A DNA stretch of 64,000 nucleotides, taken from contig PHFX01000152.1 of the NCBI GenBank assembly GCA_007618135.1, positions 1 to 64,000 on the forward strand, read 5' to 3'. The position numbers and the translations under genes are program-made. Under the pieces are notes generated by a model, which did no database searches, was not told where the DNA came from, and saw only the letters and a program-made list of their open reading frames with translations. Source of the DNA: Candidatus Brocadia sp. WS118 (lineage in GTDB: Bacteria > Planctomycetota > Brocadiia > Brocadiales > Brocadiaceae). Within the stretch, counting starts at the first letter, position 1; each line of letters opens with the position of its first letter. Shown here in pieces: positions 2,894 through 27,029 of the stretch.

Positions 2894-3212
2894 GTCAGAA
2901 CGAGTCACTTTGATTAGTGGTTCTATTGCTGACAACAAAAAGCATTTTACTGCCTTTTCTGCTATGACAAGACTATTATGAAGGGGCTTTGTATCATAAA
3001 CCGGCGTGAGCTTTTCTGATCATTTCTTATTTGTAAGCTTTTGCGATTGTGCGATTACTTAACTTTTACGATGGTGACTCCGCAACTTCCTTCTGTTGCC
3101 ATCATATTTAAAACGGCTTCTTGGGGTACCACAAATACAGATATTGATTTGGAAATGGAGAAATCTGTGTTAATCTTATTTGAAGAATACCTTTAGAAAG
3201 GGGGCATTAAAA
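2894..3212. other. Non-coding stretch between gene fragment and hicB
   Basis: I see no gene or clear repeat here. The last 20 bases contain the AAAGGGGG ribosome-binding site of hicB. A promoter for hicBA is expected in this stretch, but no convincing -35/-10 pair stands out. Confidence 0.4.
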
Positions 3213-3428
3213 ATGAAACTTACAGCAATTATTGAACGTGAAGGTGGTGGATATGTATCGTTGTGTCCGGAGTTAGATATCGCAAGCCAAGGTGATACTA
3301 TTGAACTAGCACGGGACAACCTTCGGGAGGCATTAGAGCTTTTTTTCGAGTCAGCATCAGCAGAAGAGATAAAACGTCGACTTCACAACGATATTTTCGT
3401 CACTCAGGTTGAGGTGACAGTTGGGTAA
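3213..3428 (+). CDS. hicB: HicB-family antitoxin
   Basis: A 71-aa HicB-type antitoxin, predicted to bind and neutralise the adjacent HicA RNase. The start at 3213 is chosen over the in-frame ATG at 3180 because AAAGGGGG sits just upstream and the family core begins MKLTAIIEREGGGYVSLCPE. This is the partial RNase H-like fold with the typical GGY-x-P-x-L pattern, followed by the helix AREALELF-type region. The short C-terminus has no obvious DNA-binding domain. The stop overlaps the hicA start by 8 nt, so the genes are translationally coupled. Order is antitoxin first, then toxin. Confidence 0.88.
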   Translation: MKLTAIIEREGGGYVSLCPELDIASQGDTIELARDNLREALELFFESASAEEIKRRLHNDIFVTQVEVTVG

Positions 3429-3642
3429 ACTCCGTGTTCTCTCCGGTAAAGAGGTTTGCACTCTCCTTGCCAAACACGGTTTCCTTGAAGTGCGTCGGCG
3501 CGGTAGCCATATCGTAATGCAAAAGAAACTGCCCGAAGGAACGATCACGGTTCCAGTTCCAGATCACAATGAAATCCGTATTGGAACTTTGCGGTCTATT
3601 GTTCGACAGTCTGAACTGCCCCGAAATGAATTTGAATCATGA
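3421..3642 (+). CDS. hicA: HicA-family mRNA interferase toxin
   Basis: A 73-aa HicA toxin with a double-stranded-RNA-binding-like fold that cleaves mRNA. The catalytic histidine is visible in RRRGSHIVM (residues 26-34), followed by the expected basic and VPVPDHNEI segment. Translation probably starts at TTG 3421, overlapping the end of hicB. Length is normal and no residue is obviously missing, so the toxin may be active. A GCCTAAC motif resembling the first half of an integron attC site begins 10 nt after the stop, which suggests the pair may have moved as a cassette. Confidence 0.88.
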   Translation: MGKLRVLSGKEVCTLLAKHGFLEVRRRGSHIVMQKKLPEGTITVPVPDHNEIRIGTLRSIVRQSELPRNEFES

Positions 3643-3651
3643 GTTTACAGT

Positions 3652-3680
3652 GCCTAACAAAACGTTCCACCTGACCTCTG
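3652..3680 (+). other. Possible attC half-site
   Basis: GCCTAAC matches the attC R'' consensus RYYYAAC and is followed by ACGTTCCACCTGACC, typical of the 5' arm of integron attC sites. I cannot find a matching 3' arm ending in GTTAGGC before 3770, so the site is incomplete or decayed. Confidence 0.4.
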
Positions 3681-3771
3681 TTCCGCTATTGCTCAATAGT
3701 AACAGGCGAGATTGGTCGGTAAACAAAGGGAAGAAAAAAAACAACAACAGCCCCCCTTCTTTCTTTTGCAT

Positions 3772-4647: not shown

Positions 4648-4754
4648 TCGTTTGGCAGAAGTTTGGTGCGGCTACACCGTAATCAAGTCTCCCTTATCAA
4701 AGGGGTATCCTGGGTGCTGTAAAAATACTTACACAAAAAAGAAGCTTTAAAGCG

Positions 4755-4895
4755 GTAACAATTTAGCTTTTTGAAAAATCACTACATTTTAGGTGAATCA
4801 CACGAAACGGAATATGTAGCGCGGGTGGTTTATCCCCCCGCACAAGCCGACCACAAGGGATCGGCGCTACATTTTTCAAAAAACTAATTTGTTAC
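4755..4895. repeat. MITE-like element, copy A
   Basis: Terminal inverted repeats of about 25 bp: GTAACAATTTAGCTTTTTG... at 4755-4779 and its complement, ending ...CTAATTTGTTAC, at 4871-4895. The core includes a 55-bp GTAGCGC...GCGCTAC palindromic repeat (4816-4870), related in reverse complement to copies at 55482 and 57610. No ORF. The same termini bound copies at 7450, 7734 and 59633. Confidence 0.75.
4816..4870 (-). repeat. GTAGCGCC repeat nested in MITE-like copy A
   Basis: A palindrome-ended 55-bp unit. Read on the minus strand it begins GTAGCGCCGATCCCTTGTGG, the same as the 54-bp units at 55482-55535 and 57610-57663. The second half is diverged. Confidence 0.7.
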
Positions 4896-5032
4896 TAAAA
4901 GAGTAATAAGCACCTGTTTTCCCCTGCAAATAATACTATAACAACCGCTGAAGAAATACAACTTTTAATATTGCGGGATTACATTTTTGCCTGATATAAT
5001 TTCTTATCTTTTTCACTCTCTGCTAATTTATT

Positions 5033-9868: not shown

Positions 9869-10016
9869 TTAAGGAACTATGTGTAATGGTTGCCGTTTTT
9901 CATGAAAAAGGATAAATCGTTTAATCCAATAAACATACGCCTCTTCGGTCCTCATGCTATAATGCTTTACCCTGATTGCATCTCGAAACCTGATCCAGCA
10001 ATTTTGGTTTTGGCAT
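9869..10016 (-). pseudogene. Integron-type tyrosine recombinase (intI) remnant
   Basis: The ATG at 10016 has AAGGA upstream and starts MPKPKLLDQV, the usual IntI N-terminus. One extra T shifts the frame, after which RDAIRVKHYSMRTEEAYVY and WIKRFILFHEKRQP continue in the next frame. These are the N-terminal SAM-like (core-binding) helices of integron integrases. Coding similarity ends near 9897 and a stop follows at 9869; the catalytic domain (R-H-R-Y) is gone. So only about 45 of about 320 codons remain, and they are broken. Its 5' end faces the GNAT and PNPOx genes, the normal integron layout. Confidence 0.85.
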
Positions 10017-10100
10017 AGGAGTTCCTTTTCATTATAGAAAAAATAAAAATATTGCACTATTCTGGTAATTAAGGTATAGCATCTGCACAATACGCGTGAT

Positions 10101-10182
10101 ACCTTATTATATGCCCAAATAGCCGTATAATAAGTCACCAGTAAACGTATTATATGTACTAATAGCCGTAAAATAAGACAGC
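10101..10182. repeat. 43-bp direct repeats next to the integrase remnant
   Basis: Two diverged direct copies (about 10101-10138 and 10144-10182) share TTATTATATG and AATAGCCGTAtAATAAG. The second overlaps an inverted repeat, GTACTAATAGC (10156-10166) with GCTATTAGTAC (10181-10191). This is where an attI recombination site and the cassette promoter would lie in a working integron. Confidence 0.55.
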
Positions 10183-10202
10183 TATTAGTACGCCTAATTC
10201 AT

Positions 10203-10208
10203 GTTAGC
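10203..10208 (+). other. Integron-like core site GTTAGC (cassette boundary)
   Basis: ATGTTAGCC lies 24 nt upstream of the GNAT start, at the expected junction between attI and the first cassette. The motif is short, so support comes from its position and the repeated occurrence at 10753, 24515 and 25484. Confidence 0.4.
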
Positions 10209-10232
10209 CGCCTCTATATCGGGCACTCATTG

Positions 10233-10742
10233 ATGATCGAAATCCGCAAAGAAGAACCGCAAGACCGAGACGCCGTTCACGATCTGAACTCGGCTGCATT
10301 CGACAACGGCCCAGAAGCCACACTCGTCGACAAGCTCCGTGCCTCATGCAATGACTATCTCGCTTTCGTCGCGGTCGAAGATGGTGCGGTCGTCGGCCAC
10401 ATACTGTTCACTCCGGTCACAATTGATAGCTACAGCGTAGTGGGCATGGGTTTGGCACCAATGGCAGTAATGCCTTCACATCAAAGAAAAGGCATTGGAT
10501 CTCAACTTGTCCGCTACGGGCTTGACCACTTGCGTCAGTCCGGTTGCCCGTTCGTCATCGTTTTGGGACACCCCGAGTATTACCCACGCTTTAGCTTTGA
10601 GCTTGCATCCAAATACCACCTTCTCTGCCAATGGGAAGGCGTCCCCGACGAGGCATTCATGGTGGCCATTGCCGATGACAATGCCTTGCCCAAAGCTGGT
10701 GGTGTAGCACGGTATCGCGGGGAGTTCGATAATGCCATGTAG
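10233..10742 (+). CDS. GNAT family N-acetyltransferase
   Basis: A 169-aa acetyl-CoA-dependent acetyltransferase of the COG3153 type. The acetyl-CoA pyrophosphate-binding loop is visible as HQRKGIGSQL (about residues 89-98), preceded by LAPMAVMPS. The ATG at 10233 is used. The substrate is unknown (small molecule or protein). Base use (GCGGTCGAAGATG, CTCGTCGACAAGC) is GC-richer than most neighbours, in line with horizontal arrival. It is the first gene downstream of the integrase remnant and sits between two GTTAGC core-like sites, so it is best read as an integron cassette gene. Confidence 0.87.
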   Translation: MIEIRKEEPQDRDAVHDLNSAAFDNGPEATLVDKLRASCNDYLAFVAVEDGAVVGHILFTPVTIDSYSVVGMGLAPMAVMPSHQRKGIGSQLVRYGLDHLRQSGCPFVIVLGHPEYYPRFSFELASKYHLLCQWEGVPDEAFMVAIADDNALPKAGGVARYRGEFDNAM

Positions 10743-10752
10743 GTGGCTAAAC

Positions 10753-10758
10753 GTTAGC
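10753..10758 (+). other. Integron-like core site GTTAGC after GNAT
   Basis: GGTGGCTAAACGTTAGCA directly follows the GNAT stop and resembles the 3' arm (L', R') of an attC site. The 5' arm is not recognisable, so the site is partial. Confidence 0.4.
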
Positions 10759-10789
10759 ATAAAAAGAAACCTCATTAAGGAGAAACACA

Positions 10790-11161
10790 ATGATCGACGA
10801 AAAACTATTAGAAATCATGAAAAAAGATGGGGTTGTTGCCATAGCGACATTGGGAGAAGATGGACCACATTTGGTCAACACATGGAACAGCTATTTGAGA
10901 ATTTCGGAGGAGGGTCGATTGTTTATTCCCGCAGGTTATATGCACAAAACGGAGGCCAACATTGCTTACAATCCCGATGTACTGATCACATTGGGAAGCA
11001 GTAAAGTTAAGGGGTTGCATGGGCCAGGTGCAGGTTTTCTTATTAAGGGAAAAGCAGAGTTCATAAAGTCTGGGCCTGATTTTGATTTCATGAAGGCAAA
11101 ATTCAGTTGGTTACGCGCCACCTTGGCCGTTACAATCGAATCAGCGACGCAAACTTGGTAA
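10790..11161 (+). CDS. Pyridoxamine 5'-phosphate oxidase family protein
   Basis: A 123-aa FMN-binding split-barrel protein. The segment VAIATLGEDGPHLVNTWNS and the C-terminal WLRATLAVTIESATQTW are typical of the small PNPOx-like group that often appears as single-gene cassettes or stress genes. A clear AAGGAGAA site precedes the ATG. It could bind FMN, F420 or heme; the reaction is unknown. It is followed 66 nt later by an attC-like site, so with the GNAT gene it forms a short cassette pair. Confidence 0.82.
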   Translation: MIDEKLLEIMKKDGVVAIATLGEDGPHLVNTWNSYLRISEEGRLFIPAGYMHKTEANIAYNPDVLITLGSSKVKGLHGPGAGFLIKGKAEFIKSGPDFDFMKAKFSWLRATLAVTIESATQTW

Positions 11162-11226
11162 CGGCTATTGGGCTGATTCGTTGCTTGGTATTTACATCCA
11201 TGAGACAAAAGTAGATTACAGAAACT

Positions 11227-11273
11227 GCTAACAAAACAATCAACCCGACCGGCCGGTTATCGTTGCGTTATGC
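11227..11273 (+). other. attC-like recombination site
   Basis: GCTAACAAAACAATCAACC at the left pairs imperfectly with CCGGTTATCGTTGCGTTATGC at the right (to 11273), giving the bulged hairpin expected of attC, with R''-like GCTAAC and R'-like GTTATGC. It is short (47 bp), placed right after the PNPOx gene. Confidence 0.6.
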
Positions 11274-24521: not shown

Positions 24522-24774
24522 TACGTTTTGTTTCTGTGTATGACGGTTGGATAATCCTTACTTTCAACACAATTCAATCGGTTTCTGTTTGACAACTGAT
24601 ATGGCATGATATAACATGCTGTCATTTACTGAATAAAGATAAAAATGAATGTTGTAAGCAATATAAATATGATTACAGAAGATGATATTCAAAAACCCCG
24701 TTCTCCCCGTGGCTTACGGCAGTTCGTTACTCGGCGTAAAAAGAGAATAAAATCGATAAAAACTGAGCGTCACA

Positions 24775-25275
24775 ATGCGATTCGGCGTAGAGGGCTTTAC
24801 AATGTATTTTTCAAGGAAATCGTTCCACTCAGTGTATTTGGCATATGAGAACTCCTGTACTGTGCAACCGGTTCTCAGTAACCAAGGCTATGATGCAATT
24901 GTAAAAGATAATGAAGGCAATATTATCGACTTTGTTGAACTGACATTTCCAGATAATTGGAAATCTGAAGCCAAAGATGCCGATCTGATCGTTTCACGAG
25001 GTTATGGGCAAATTCATGTTTGCGAGCCTGGTGGTGATATTGATCGTCTTCTTAGATTTATTCAAGATATCTGTTTGAAGAAATCTCAAAATGATTACTC
25101 TGGATGCACACTCGTCATAGTTATTGAATTCTGGCCGGTATCAAGACAATATCGTGCTCTTTATTCTCGCAAAATACAAGATGTAATAAAAAATGTGCAG
25201 GCTGTCTCATTTAAAGCAAAAAGGGTGTTCCTGCTTCTTCTGGAGCAACACAAAATATATGGAATTAAAGAATGA
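24775..25275 (+). CDS. Hypothetical protein, possibly N-terminally frameshifted
   Basis: 166 aa; the convincing part starts around YLAYENSCTVQPVLSNQGYD and ends HKIYGIKE. An open frame at 24645-24848 (starting MNVVSNINMITEDDIQK, basic) overlaps it in another frame, so one gene of about 200 codons may have been split near 24830. YDAIVKDNEGN followed by DFVELT is faintly like the D...E part of a PD-(D/E)XK nuclease but lacks the Lys. No family is assigned. It lies between GTTAGCC at 24515 and an attC-like site at 25403, so it may be a cassette gene. Confidence 0.5.
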   Translation: MRFGVEGFTMYFSRKSFHSVYLAYENSCTVQPVLSNQGYDAIVKDNEGNIIDFVELTFPDNWKSEAKDADLIVSRGYGQIHVCEPGGDIDRLLRFIQDICLKKSQNDYSGCTLVIVIEFWPVSRQYRALYSRKIQDVIKNVQAVSFKAKRVFLLLLEQHKIYGIKE

Positions 25276-25277
25276 CA

Positions 25278-25397
25278 AAAATAATAATAGGGCTATCCGC
25301 TTGATTGCCGTATTCTCAACAAATAGTATATTTTTAGTGCCGAAGATTGCTATATAAAGTACGAAGGACAGTCAAGCGGATAGCCCAAAATAATAAT
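25278..25397. mobile_element. 98-bp palindrome-ended element with 11-bp direct repeats
   Basis: Inverted ends GGGCTATCCGCTTGA (25290-25304) and TCAAGCGGATAGCCC (25372-25386) enclose an AT-rich non-coding core. AAAATAATAAT occurs on both sides (25278-25288 and 25387-25397), as expected for a target-site duplication. It inserted next to the attC-like site. It resembles a MITE or a REP-type element; I see no second copy in the window. Confidence 0.75.
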
Positions 25398-25402
25398 TCA
25401 GC

Positions 25403-25490
25403 GTACAACAAATCAATCGAGCCGACAGGTAATAATTTTGGCGGGTATTTCAAAGGTGTTTGCCCCTGCGGCTCATTGTAATTGTTAGCA
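25403..25490 (+). other. attC-like recombination site
   Basis: GAGCCGACAGG (25419-25429) pairs with CCTGCGGCTC (25465-25474) except for one extra A, the extrahelical base typical of attC. Outer boxes ACAACAA and TTGTTAGC also pair. Size, bulge and box order fit an integron attC folded on one strand. Confidence 0.7.
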
Positions 25491-25502
25491 GGAGAAAGAA
25501 AG

Positions 25503-25895
25503 ATGCCGGGAATGAGCCTATCGTTCAATTGCCCATGCGGATTCCAAAGAAATGATATATGGGTAGGCGCAACAGAGACCGGTCATTACACCGTTTTCTT
25601 GTGTCTGCAATGTAAGAAAATCTTCTCTATCTGGACATCTGTTAGAAAGCATCATAATAGAGTTTGCAAAAGGTGCGGTATGAAGCTCATGGCTGCGACC
25701 GACTCCGGTGTTTGGGAACCAGCTTCATTGCAACAGAGGTTCCCTGATACCGAACCGTGGATGGTTGAGAATGACGTTTACGAACTTGAGGAACCGGAAA
25801 ACAATTATATTTCTAGTATTGAGAATATACGTCTTCTCTGTCCCAACTGTAGAAAATATTCACTTACGTTTGAAAGCACTGCGTTCTGGGATTAA
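25503..25895 (+). CDS. Zinc-ribbon-like hypothetical protein (cassette gene)
   Basis: 130 aa from ATG 25503 (AGCAGGAGAAAGAAAG upstream). Cys pairs CPCG (near residue 10), CLQC, CKRCG and CPNC suggest two zinc ribbons. The middle part, VWEPASLQQRFPDTEPW, has no known domain. It begins 13 nt after the attC-like core site and is followed 44 nt later by the nuclease-like gene. Probable role: zinc-binding partner or DNA/RNA-binding factor; not demonstrated. Confidence 0.68.
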   Translation: MPGMSLSFNCPCGFQRNDIWVGATETGHYTVFLCLQCKKIFSIWTSVRKHHNRVCKRCGMKLMAATDSGVWEPASLQQRFPDTEPWMVENDVYELEEPENNYISSIENIRLLCPNCRKYSLTFESTAFWD

Positions 25896-25939
25896 AGGCA
25901 ACAGAAGTGAATGGTTTAAAGCTGTAGACGGCTTATATC

Positions 25940-26677
25940 ATGACCTATAACAAAGTTGAGGAAGATACCGAGGCACGTAACGCACTCTGGGCGGCAATTT
26001 GTGATGCTGCAACGAAACTGGCAAGCAGCTGTACAGTGTATATTTCGCTATCACCTGATATAGCGTCGAAAGTCCGTTCGCAAATGCCAGTTCCAGAAGT
26101 TCAGACTTGGCAGTTGGTCGAGGCGTTAAGTCTGCTTGCCATTTTGATCAAAGCGGGGGTAGTTATGACATCTGAGGTCTGCAATCTCTTTGGCTCAACA
26201 GGCCCTCTGCACTTCATGGAGGATGGTCACGATCGGTATTTGTGGGCACAACCTTTACTCCGCGGACAAGAAAGCGCTTTGGGAGGTCGGCCAGATCTCG
26301 TTGTGTCGTCTACCCCAGATACCCCATCAGCTTTGAACATCATCCGCGTTGTTGAATGCAAATGTCGAAAGCGACTAGGTGCCCCTGACATTCGGGGAGA
26401 GTTCGGGAAAGCACACGACCTCCGTGTAACCTCTTATTTAATATGGTCATTTAACACTCCTGCTCTGAGCGTTATCGAAGGAGCCAAACGACTGGGGCTG
26501 GATATCGAGCCCCTTGGTTTTGATACAGACAGACGCACAGACTTGATTTCGATGCCTGAGAACCTTGTTATGCATGTTGCAAACACTCAGGAAGTTTCTA
26601 GACGAGGAAACCGGTTTGCTCAGCTTATGCTTAAGAGTAGCAATGACGCTTCTCTTAAGACACTCAAACAAGCATGA
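25940..26677 (+). CDS. PD-(D/E)XK nuclease-like protein (cassette gene)
   Basis: 245 aa, soluble. GGRPDLVVSS, then IIRVVECKCRKRLG, form the D...ExK core of the PD-(D/E)XK nuclease superfamily (Asp near residue 118, E-C-K near 137-139). The N-terminal 100 residues are helical with no known domain. Such folds occur in restriction enzymes, repair nucleases and Holliday-junction resolvases, so a defence role is possible but only inferred. It is flanked by attC-like sites at 25403 and 26681 and shares the cassette with the zinc-ribbon gene. Confidence 0.7.
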   Translation: MTYNKVEEDTEARNALWAAICDAATKLASSCTVYISLSPDIASKVRSQMPVPEVQTWQLVEALSLLAILIKAGVVMTSEVCNLFGSTGPLHFMEDGHDRYLWAQPLLRGQESALGGRPDLVVSSTPDTPSALNIIRVVECKCRKRLGAPDIRGEFGKAHDLRVTSYLIWSFNTPALSVIEGAKRLGLDIEPLGFDTDRRTDLISMPENLVMHVANTQEVSRRGNRFAQLMLKSSNDASLKTLKQA

Positions 26678-26680
26678 ACT

Positions 26681-26746
26681 GCCAACAAAGCGTTCCACCA
26701 AATCGCGGCTTGTCAGCCGCTCCCAATAAACTTTGGTCGTTAGTGC
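26681..26746 (+). other. attC-like recombination site
   Basis: GCCAAC (26681) pairs with GTTAGTGC (26739-26746), CACCAAA with TTTGGT, and a perfect inner hairpin GCGGCT-TGTC-AGCCGC lies at 26705-26720. It starts 4 nt after the nuclease-like gene's stop, the normal position for the 3' end of a cassette. Confidence 0.6.
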
Positions 26747-26930: not shown

Positions 26931-27029
26931 ATGAACCAAAAACAGCTAAAGAAAGAACTTAAAAGCCTTTTCAAAAGCACGGATTTTGTCAGTAATAATT
27001 TCCTTAATGGTAATAATCAAGTACTATGA
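26931..27029 (+). CDS. Possible 32-aa leader peptide
   Basis: MNQKQLKKELKSLFKSTDFV... ends in TGA that overlaps the next gene's ATG (ATGA). The overlap chain with the two following genes suggests translational coupling, but the peptide is too short for any family match and has no strong ribosome-binding site. Confidence 0.3.
   Translation: MNQKQLKKELKSLFKSTDFVSNNFLNGNNQVL

Follow-up and report, generated by a model that had tools for sequence, protein, structure and literature searches.

An integron array with a predicted attI and promoter but no adjacent integrase gene carries a zinc ribbon–putative nuclease cassette in a Candidatus Brocadia genome

Results

The locus described here lies in a 64,000-nucleotide stretch of DNA, all of which was analyzed and which we call the window. 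The window represents contig C14 of a 5.04-Mb, 299-contig draft assembly (96.3% complete, 3.4% contamination), and since its flanks are up to 93% identical to same-genus genomes, the contig can be assigned to that lineage. Read rightwards, the locus begins with a short element that we interpret as an attI with its own promoter, followed by two cassettes (Table 1). The first holds a single open frame, ORF157, and the site attC1, with a 97-bp inverted-repeat element between them; the second holds the genes for a double zinc-ribbon-like protein and a putative nuclease and ends in a degenerate site, attC2. A sequence-only reading of this DNA had described two same-strand genes between a pair of attC-like sites, with no integrase gene, and the genes of the window bear this out.

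Table 1. Features of the integron locus and of a second integron remnant in the window
Feature	Coordinates	Strand	Basis
Second integron remnant	9887-11273	intI fragment minus	intI fragment, GNAT and PNPOx cassettes, attC
attI with cassette promoter (predicted)	24569..24653	+	Profile score, 12-copy alignment, intI adjacency elsewhere
Cassette 1 (ORF157, miniature inverted-repeat element, attC1)	24652..25484	+	5' end pairs with own R''
ORF157, protein of cassette 1	24802..25275	+	Open frame
97-bp miniature inverted-repeat element, GGGCTATCCGCTTGA ends	25290..25386		Sequence
attC1	25403..25490	+	Covariance score, bottom-strand fold, syntenic homolog in G304
Cassette 2 (zinc ribbon, putative nuclease, attC2)	25485..26739	+	5' end/R'' complementarity; absent in G304, junction at R'
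Double zinc-ribbon-like protein, 130 aa	25503..25895	+	Four cysteine pairs
Putative PD-(D/E)XK-type nuclease, 245 aa	25940..26677	+	D119, E139, K141 kept in homolog
attC2, predicted degenerate attC (R boxes kept, L stem lost)	26680..26746	+	Covariance score, G122 alignment, G304 flank
Right flank of platform	26740..27023		Matches sequence after attC1 in G304

The recombination sites were assessed with models trained on annotated attC sites of class 1 and class 2 integrons from plasmids and on intI-adjacent arrays of the same order, all from outside the window. The covariance model, R1, was built from 25 such sites. These trained models replaced a first crude scan, in which site 1 was inseparable from shuffled sequence. 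With R1, attC1 scores 36.3 bits, corresponding to E-values of 4.2e-6 in the window and 3.3e-4 in the whole genome, where 29 matches at E up to 1 are distributed over many contigs. A scorer based on class 1/2 sites only gives it 40.5, whereas Markov background sequence totaling 2.56 Mb reached 32.0 at best. The established bottom-strand layout of an attC consists of an R stem, a spacer, and an L stem, with single-base bulges. The bottom strand of attC1 folds in this way, with an unpaired spacer and with single-base T and G bulges interrupting the L stem, and only 4 of 200 shuffled versions fold equally well. A site 78% identical to it occupies the syntenic place in G304. attC1 is a real and strong attC, as the sequence-only reading had supposed, and the covariance scan that it had proposed places the site far above chance.

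The companion site, put by that reading at 26681-26746, is weaker. After attC1, the R1 matches in the window, all on the plus strand, are at 11226-11273 (30.2 bits), 3652-3724 (21), and 26680-26745 (15); the last of these, attC2, thus ranks fourth, with 15.0 bits and a window E of 0.37. It retains the R boxes and spacers, the canonical L stem is absent from both the model alignment and the fold, and 25 of 200 shuffles fold equally well. These values would fit an alternative in which attC1 alone is an attC, the likeness of attC2 is due to chance, and the two genes came or evolved without cassette recombination. Three further observations speak against it. In an integrated cassette, the bases past the upstream G^TT derive from the cassette's own attC and are expected to pair with its own R''. 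The 5' end of cassette 2 (25484: GTTAGCA) is complementary to its R'' (TGCCAAC) at 6/7 positions. In addition, attC2 here and attC1 in G304 share their downstream sequence, and the interior of attC2, which is closest to an attC of the G122 integron, aligns to it with a score exceeding those of all 400 interior shuffles. We therefore regard chance likeness as extremely improbable. attC2 is better explained as a decayed attC that still marks a true cassette end, because cassette 2 is complementary to its own R'' and its downstream flank is shared with that of attC1 in G304. The attC2 DNA has no second significant copy in the genome.

The comparison with G304 also defines cassette 2 as a whole. 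In that genome, the attC1 homolog ends a different cassette, which carries a NucS-like nuclease gene, and is joined directly to the sequence found after attC2 in the window. Cassette 2 is thus present in one genome and absent from the other, with a precise junction at R', and the stretch from its first to its last base behaves as one insertable unit. The proposal that the two genes share one mobile unit is upheld by the sequence models, the cassette-end complementarity, and this comparison within the genus. As the stem of attC2 is lost, however, cassette 2 would probably now be fixed or poorly mobile.

Cassette 1, which the sequence-only reading had overlooked, shows the same relation between its ends, as its 5' end (24651: GTTGTAA) is complementary to its own R'' (GTACAAC) at 6/7 positions. 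ORF157 has no match in Pfam, NCBIfam, or PADLOC, and no homolog in 294 genomes of the phylum, plasmids, or viral contigs. The 97-bp element has related copies in 8 of the 33 genomes of the family, and its relatives are dispersed in the genus.

The two proteins of cassette 2 are assigned with differing certainty. The first has the cysteine pairs of a double zinc ribbon, as had been claimed, but its profile matches are weak (Zn_ribbon_8 at E 2e-4, below the curated cut-off), as is its PADLOC match. The second contains the motifs GGRPDLVV and RVVECK, which supply D119, E139, and K141 in the arrangement D-x19-E-x-K, surrounded by hydrophobic strands. All three residues are conserved in its one known homolog, from Binatus soli of the Binatota (P0004; 52% identity). 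This homolog has no zinc-ribbon neighbor, and its genome gave no attC match. The 245-aa protein is therefore likely a nuclease, judging from these residues; of the PD-(D/E)XK claim, the conserved D...E-x-K stands, but it is not joined by a confident fold or by any match above threshold in Pfam, NCBIfam, PADLOC, PHROG, or the PDB. Structure prediction, proposed earlier as a check on the nuclease core, reached a pLDDT of 34 from one sequence and 39 from two, yielding no usable model, and a fold search returned no significant match. HK97 capsid matches to this protein were set aside as weak and without catalytic context, and a second Binatota match (L099, E 0.004) was rejected because it lies antisense to an isoleucyl-tRNA-synthetase-like gene.

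Searches for homologs of the cassette genes covered 294 genomes of the phylum together with plasmid, phage, and viral collections, the coverage of genes and collections being uneven and the nuclease being the sole cassette gene scanned in the genome-wide collection. Apart from the Binatus match to the nuclease, the three cassette genes have no homolog in the collections searched. The survey for the two-gene pair, also suggested by the earlier reading, agrees with this: the pair is not found elsewhere among the 294 phylum genomes, nor in the plasmid, phage, and viral collections.

Upstream of the cassettes lies the predicted attI. It contains the Pc-like promoter hexamers TTGACA (24589) and TAACAT (ending at 24617) and a crossover G^TT at 24651-24653; a profile from whose training the window copy was excluded gives it 85.6 bits. 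A profile search recovers this element, about 85 bp long, in 31 of the 33 family genomes, at 1-17 copies each. In an alignment of 12 copies, similarity stops at AATG^TT and the sequence beyond is unrelated, the last bases deviating in the G070 copy and in one other. In G122, G217, and G195, some 66-69 bp separate the element from a full intI that is read divergently, and the element is placed between this gene and the first cassette. Further copies adjoin intI fragments; many others, including that of the window, have no adjacent intI. In 40 loci surrounding element copies, all 25 attC matches lie downstream on the same strand (27/27 with the two of the window). Finally, when the junction bases of the element were compared with the R'' of the attC that comes next, 51 of 72 variable positions agreed; the mean for shuffled data was 31.6, and none of 20,000 shuffles reached 51.

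These observations bear on whether the element could be a dispersed promoter repeat rather than an attI, in which case the array would be a CALIN of the ordinary kind, lacking a docking site. Per genome, copies of the element outnumber strong intI matches, and most of the weaker copies (those scoring under about 56 bits) have neither intI nor attC nearby; such low-scoring copies may indeed be something else. A mere promoter repeat, however, would not account for the uniform placement and orientation of the attC matches, the agreement between junction bases and R'', or the way strong copies lie in three genomes, with a divergent intI on one side and the first cassette on the other, and we consider it very unlikely. 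On sequence grounds, the element is an attI with promoter-like TTGACA/TAACAT hexamers, an identity based on the homology end at G^TT, the adjacency to intI, the downstream attC matches, and the junction-R'' match. We also observed three consecutive element copies, all on one strand and spaced by about 0.9-1.7 kb, in G258 (L172:4974-7682) and G304 (L171:5022-7730), an arrangement alike in these two genera.

The cassettes at the locus differ among close relatives. Synteny is retained from about position 27023 in G070, G303, G304, and G217. At the same spot, a gene with a GmrSD_N domain and a ParE/RelB pair occur in G217, together with an attC of 39 bits. G303 has a GmrSD_N gene there and G304 a NucS_C gene; G070 holds almost nothing, with 86 bp separating the equivalents of 24651 and 27023. 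Sister platforms behind the same attI element are similarly varied. In G122 (L162:5169-6813), a complete XhoI-type restriction gene and an N6/N4 methylase form one two-gene cassette that ends in attC and stands behind an intact intI-attI. G195 has a gene of unknown family with an N6/N4 methylase, G301 has Shedu SduA, and G314 has FRG-like and ParE genes; many other cassettes behind the element belong to no known family.

Elsewhere in the window, an integrase remnant 15 kb away had been noted. An intI N-terminal fragment is indeed present there, on the minus strand at 9887-9991, but as part of a small integron distinct from this locus. Its GNAT cassette (10203-10752) has an attC collapsed to GGCTAAACGTTAGCA, and its PNPOx cassette (10753-11232), followed by the attC at 11226-11273, has a 5' end that agrees with its own R'' at 7/7 positions. 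This remnant was set aside as the source platform once the nearer attI was found. Immediately ahead of the first cassette junction, a near-identical hairpin occurs in the window (10140-10209) and in L011:12975-13044, in both cases near intI remnants; it is possibly a second type of attI. HicBA-like toxin-antitoxin genes at 3180-3724 are directly followed by the degenerate attC at 3652-3724 and likely form a toxin-antitoxin cassette. The 145 bp at 4753-4897 form a near-perfect inverted repeat, probably a miniature transposable element. An Rfam scan of the window gave no match. A multiheme protein with a hydroxylamine-oxidoreductase C-terminal match was also observed, which points to an anammox planctomycete.

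Discussion

The locus is a CALIN that keeps its attI and has no intI. The CALIN-like character proposed by the sequence-only reading holds in that there is an attC pair without an adjacent intI, and needs amending in that the array keeps an attI and promoter of its own and includes an upstream cassette. We are confident in the overall interpretation as a chromosomal integron platform, composed of an attI with promoter and two cassettes (ORF157-attC1 and zinc ribbon-nuclease-attC2). No trace of intI was found at the locus itself, the nearest being the fragment 15 kb away, so the loss of intI there is something we infer. The genome does contain a full-length intI on another contig, C36.

CALINs, two-ORF cassettes, and mobilization in trans have already been described (PMC12444791), and the Shewanella prophage M16-3 provides an example of a CALIN that has an attI of its own (PMC9892861). 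Like the former, our locus has two attC sites in the same orientation with cassette genes between them, no nearby intI, and a content that varies among relatives; unlike them, it keeps an attI and promoter, comprises only two cassettes, and has one decayed attC. The M16-3 array resembles it more closely, being an intI-less array whose starting attI also occurs in a complete integron, and the M16-3 attI ends in AATGTT as it does here. However, the present array is located on a bacterial chromosome, and copies of its attI element are dispersed across most genomes of the family. What appears to be new here is the zinc ribbon-nuclease pair and the family-wide scatter of intI-less attI-promoter sites. 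No description of such a scatter was found in the literature searched, which is not proof of novelty.

From the anatomy of the locus, rightward transcription of both cassettes would start from the promoter at 24589-24617, and the cassettes would presumably be exchanged by IntI acting in trans, for which the intI on C36 is a candidate. As to what cassette 2 does, the nuclease may cut invading DNA, with the double zinc ribbon possibly aiding it in target binding or recognition. The simplest and most likely reading is that the two proteins form a small restriction-type defense unit, to which we give about an even chance. This suggestion is based on the fact that a two-gene nuclease cassette sits on a type of platform that carries defense-type cassettes in relatives. 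Defense cassettes have been reported in integrons (Kieffer et al. 2025, Science, as cited in PMC12444791), and the cassette described here resembles them in being a small cassette-borne set of restriction- or nuclease-type genes, although the zinc ribbon-nuclease pair has no counterpart among described systems. Its resemblance to the PD-(D/E)XK superfamily likewise extends to the D119...E139-x-K141 signature and its hydrophobic strands, and not to a match above threshold with any database entry.

An alternative with the same cassette architecture is that the pair is not anti-phage at all, and instead acts as a toxin-antitoxin-like or addiction unit, in DNA repair, or in some other role. Toxin-antitoxin genes do occur on these platforms (ParE/RelB in G217) and in the window (HicBA, followed by the attC at 3652), the nuclease has no PADLOC counterpart, and many neighboring cassettes are of no known family. 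On the other hand, restriction or Shedu/GmrSD-type genes make up several of the sister cassettes, and the D...E-x-K residues point to a nuclease. We would give this alternative somewhat less than an even chance.

Returning to the defense reading and extending it to the family, we tentatively propose that the integrons of this family consist of many intI-less attI-promoter sites scattered over the chromosome, each with one or a few cassettes, often of defense type, and all depending on a small number of intI genes that act in trans, and that the zinc ribbon-nuclease pair may be a new restriction-type unit moving through them. Small platforms that have an attI and promoter but no integrase gene can be recognized by sequence, and in this family they mark variable, often defense-rich spots. 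They offer a direct route to mining cassette genes of unknown function, the nuclease pair included, for new defense functions. Should IntI supplied in trans act on these docking sites, an integron would function here as their genome-wide set, rather than as a block of intI, attI, and array.
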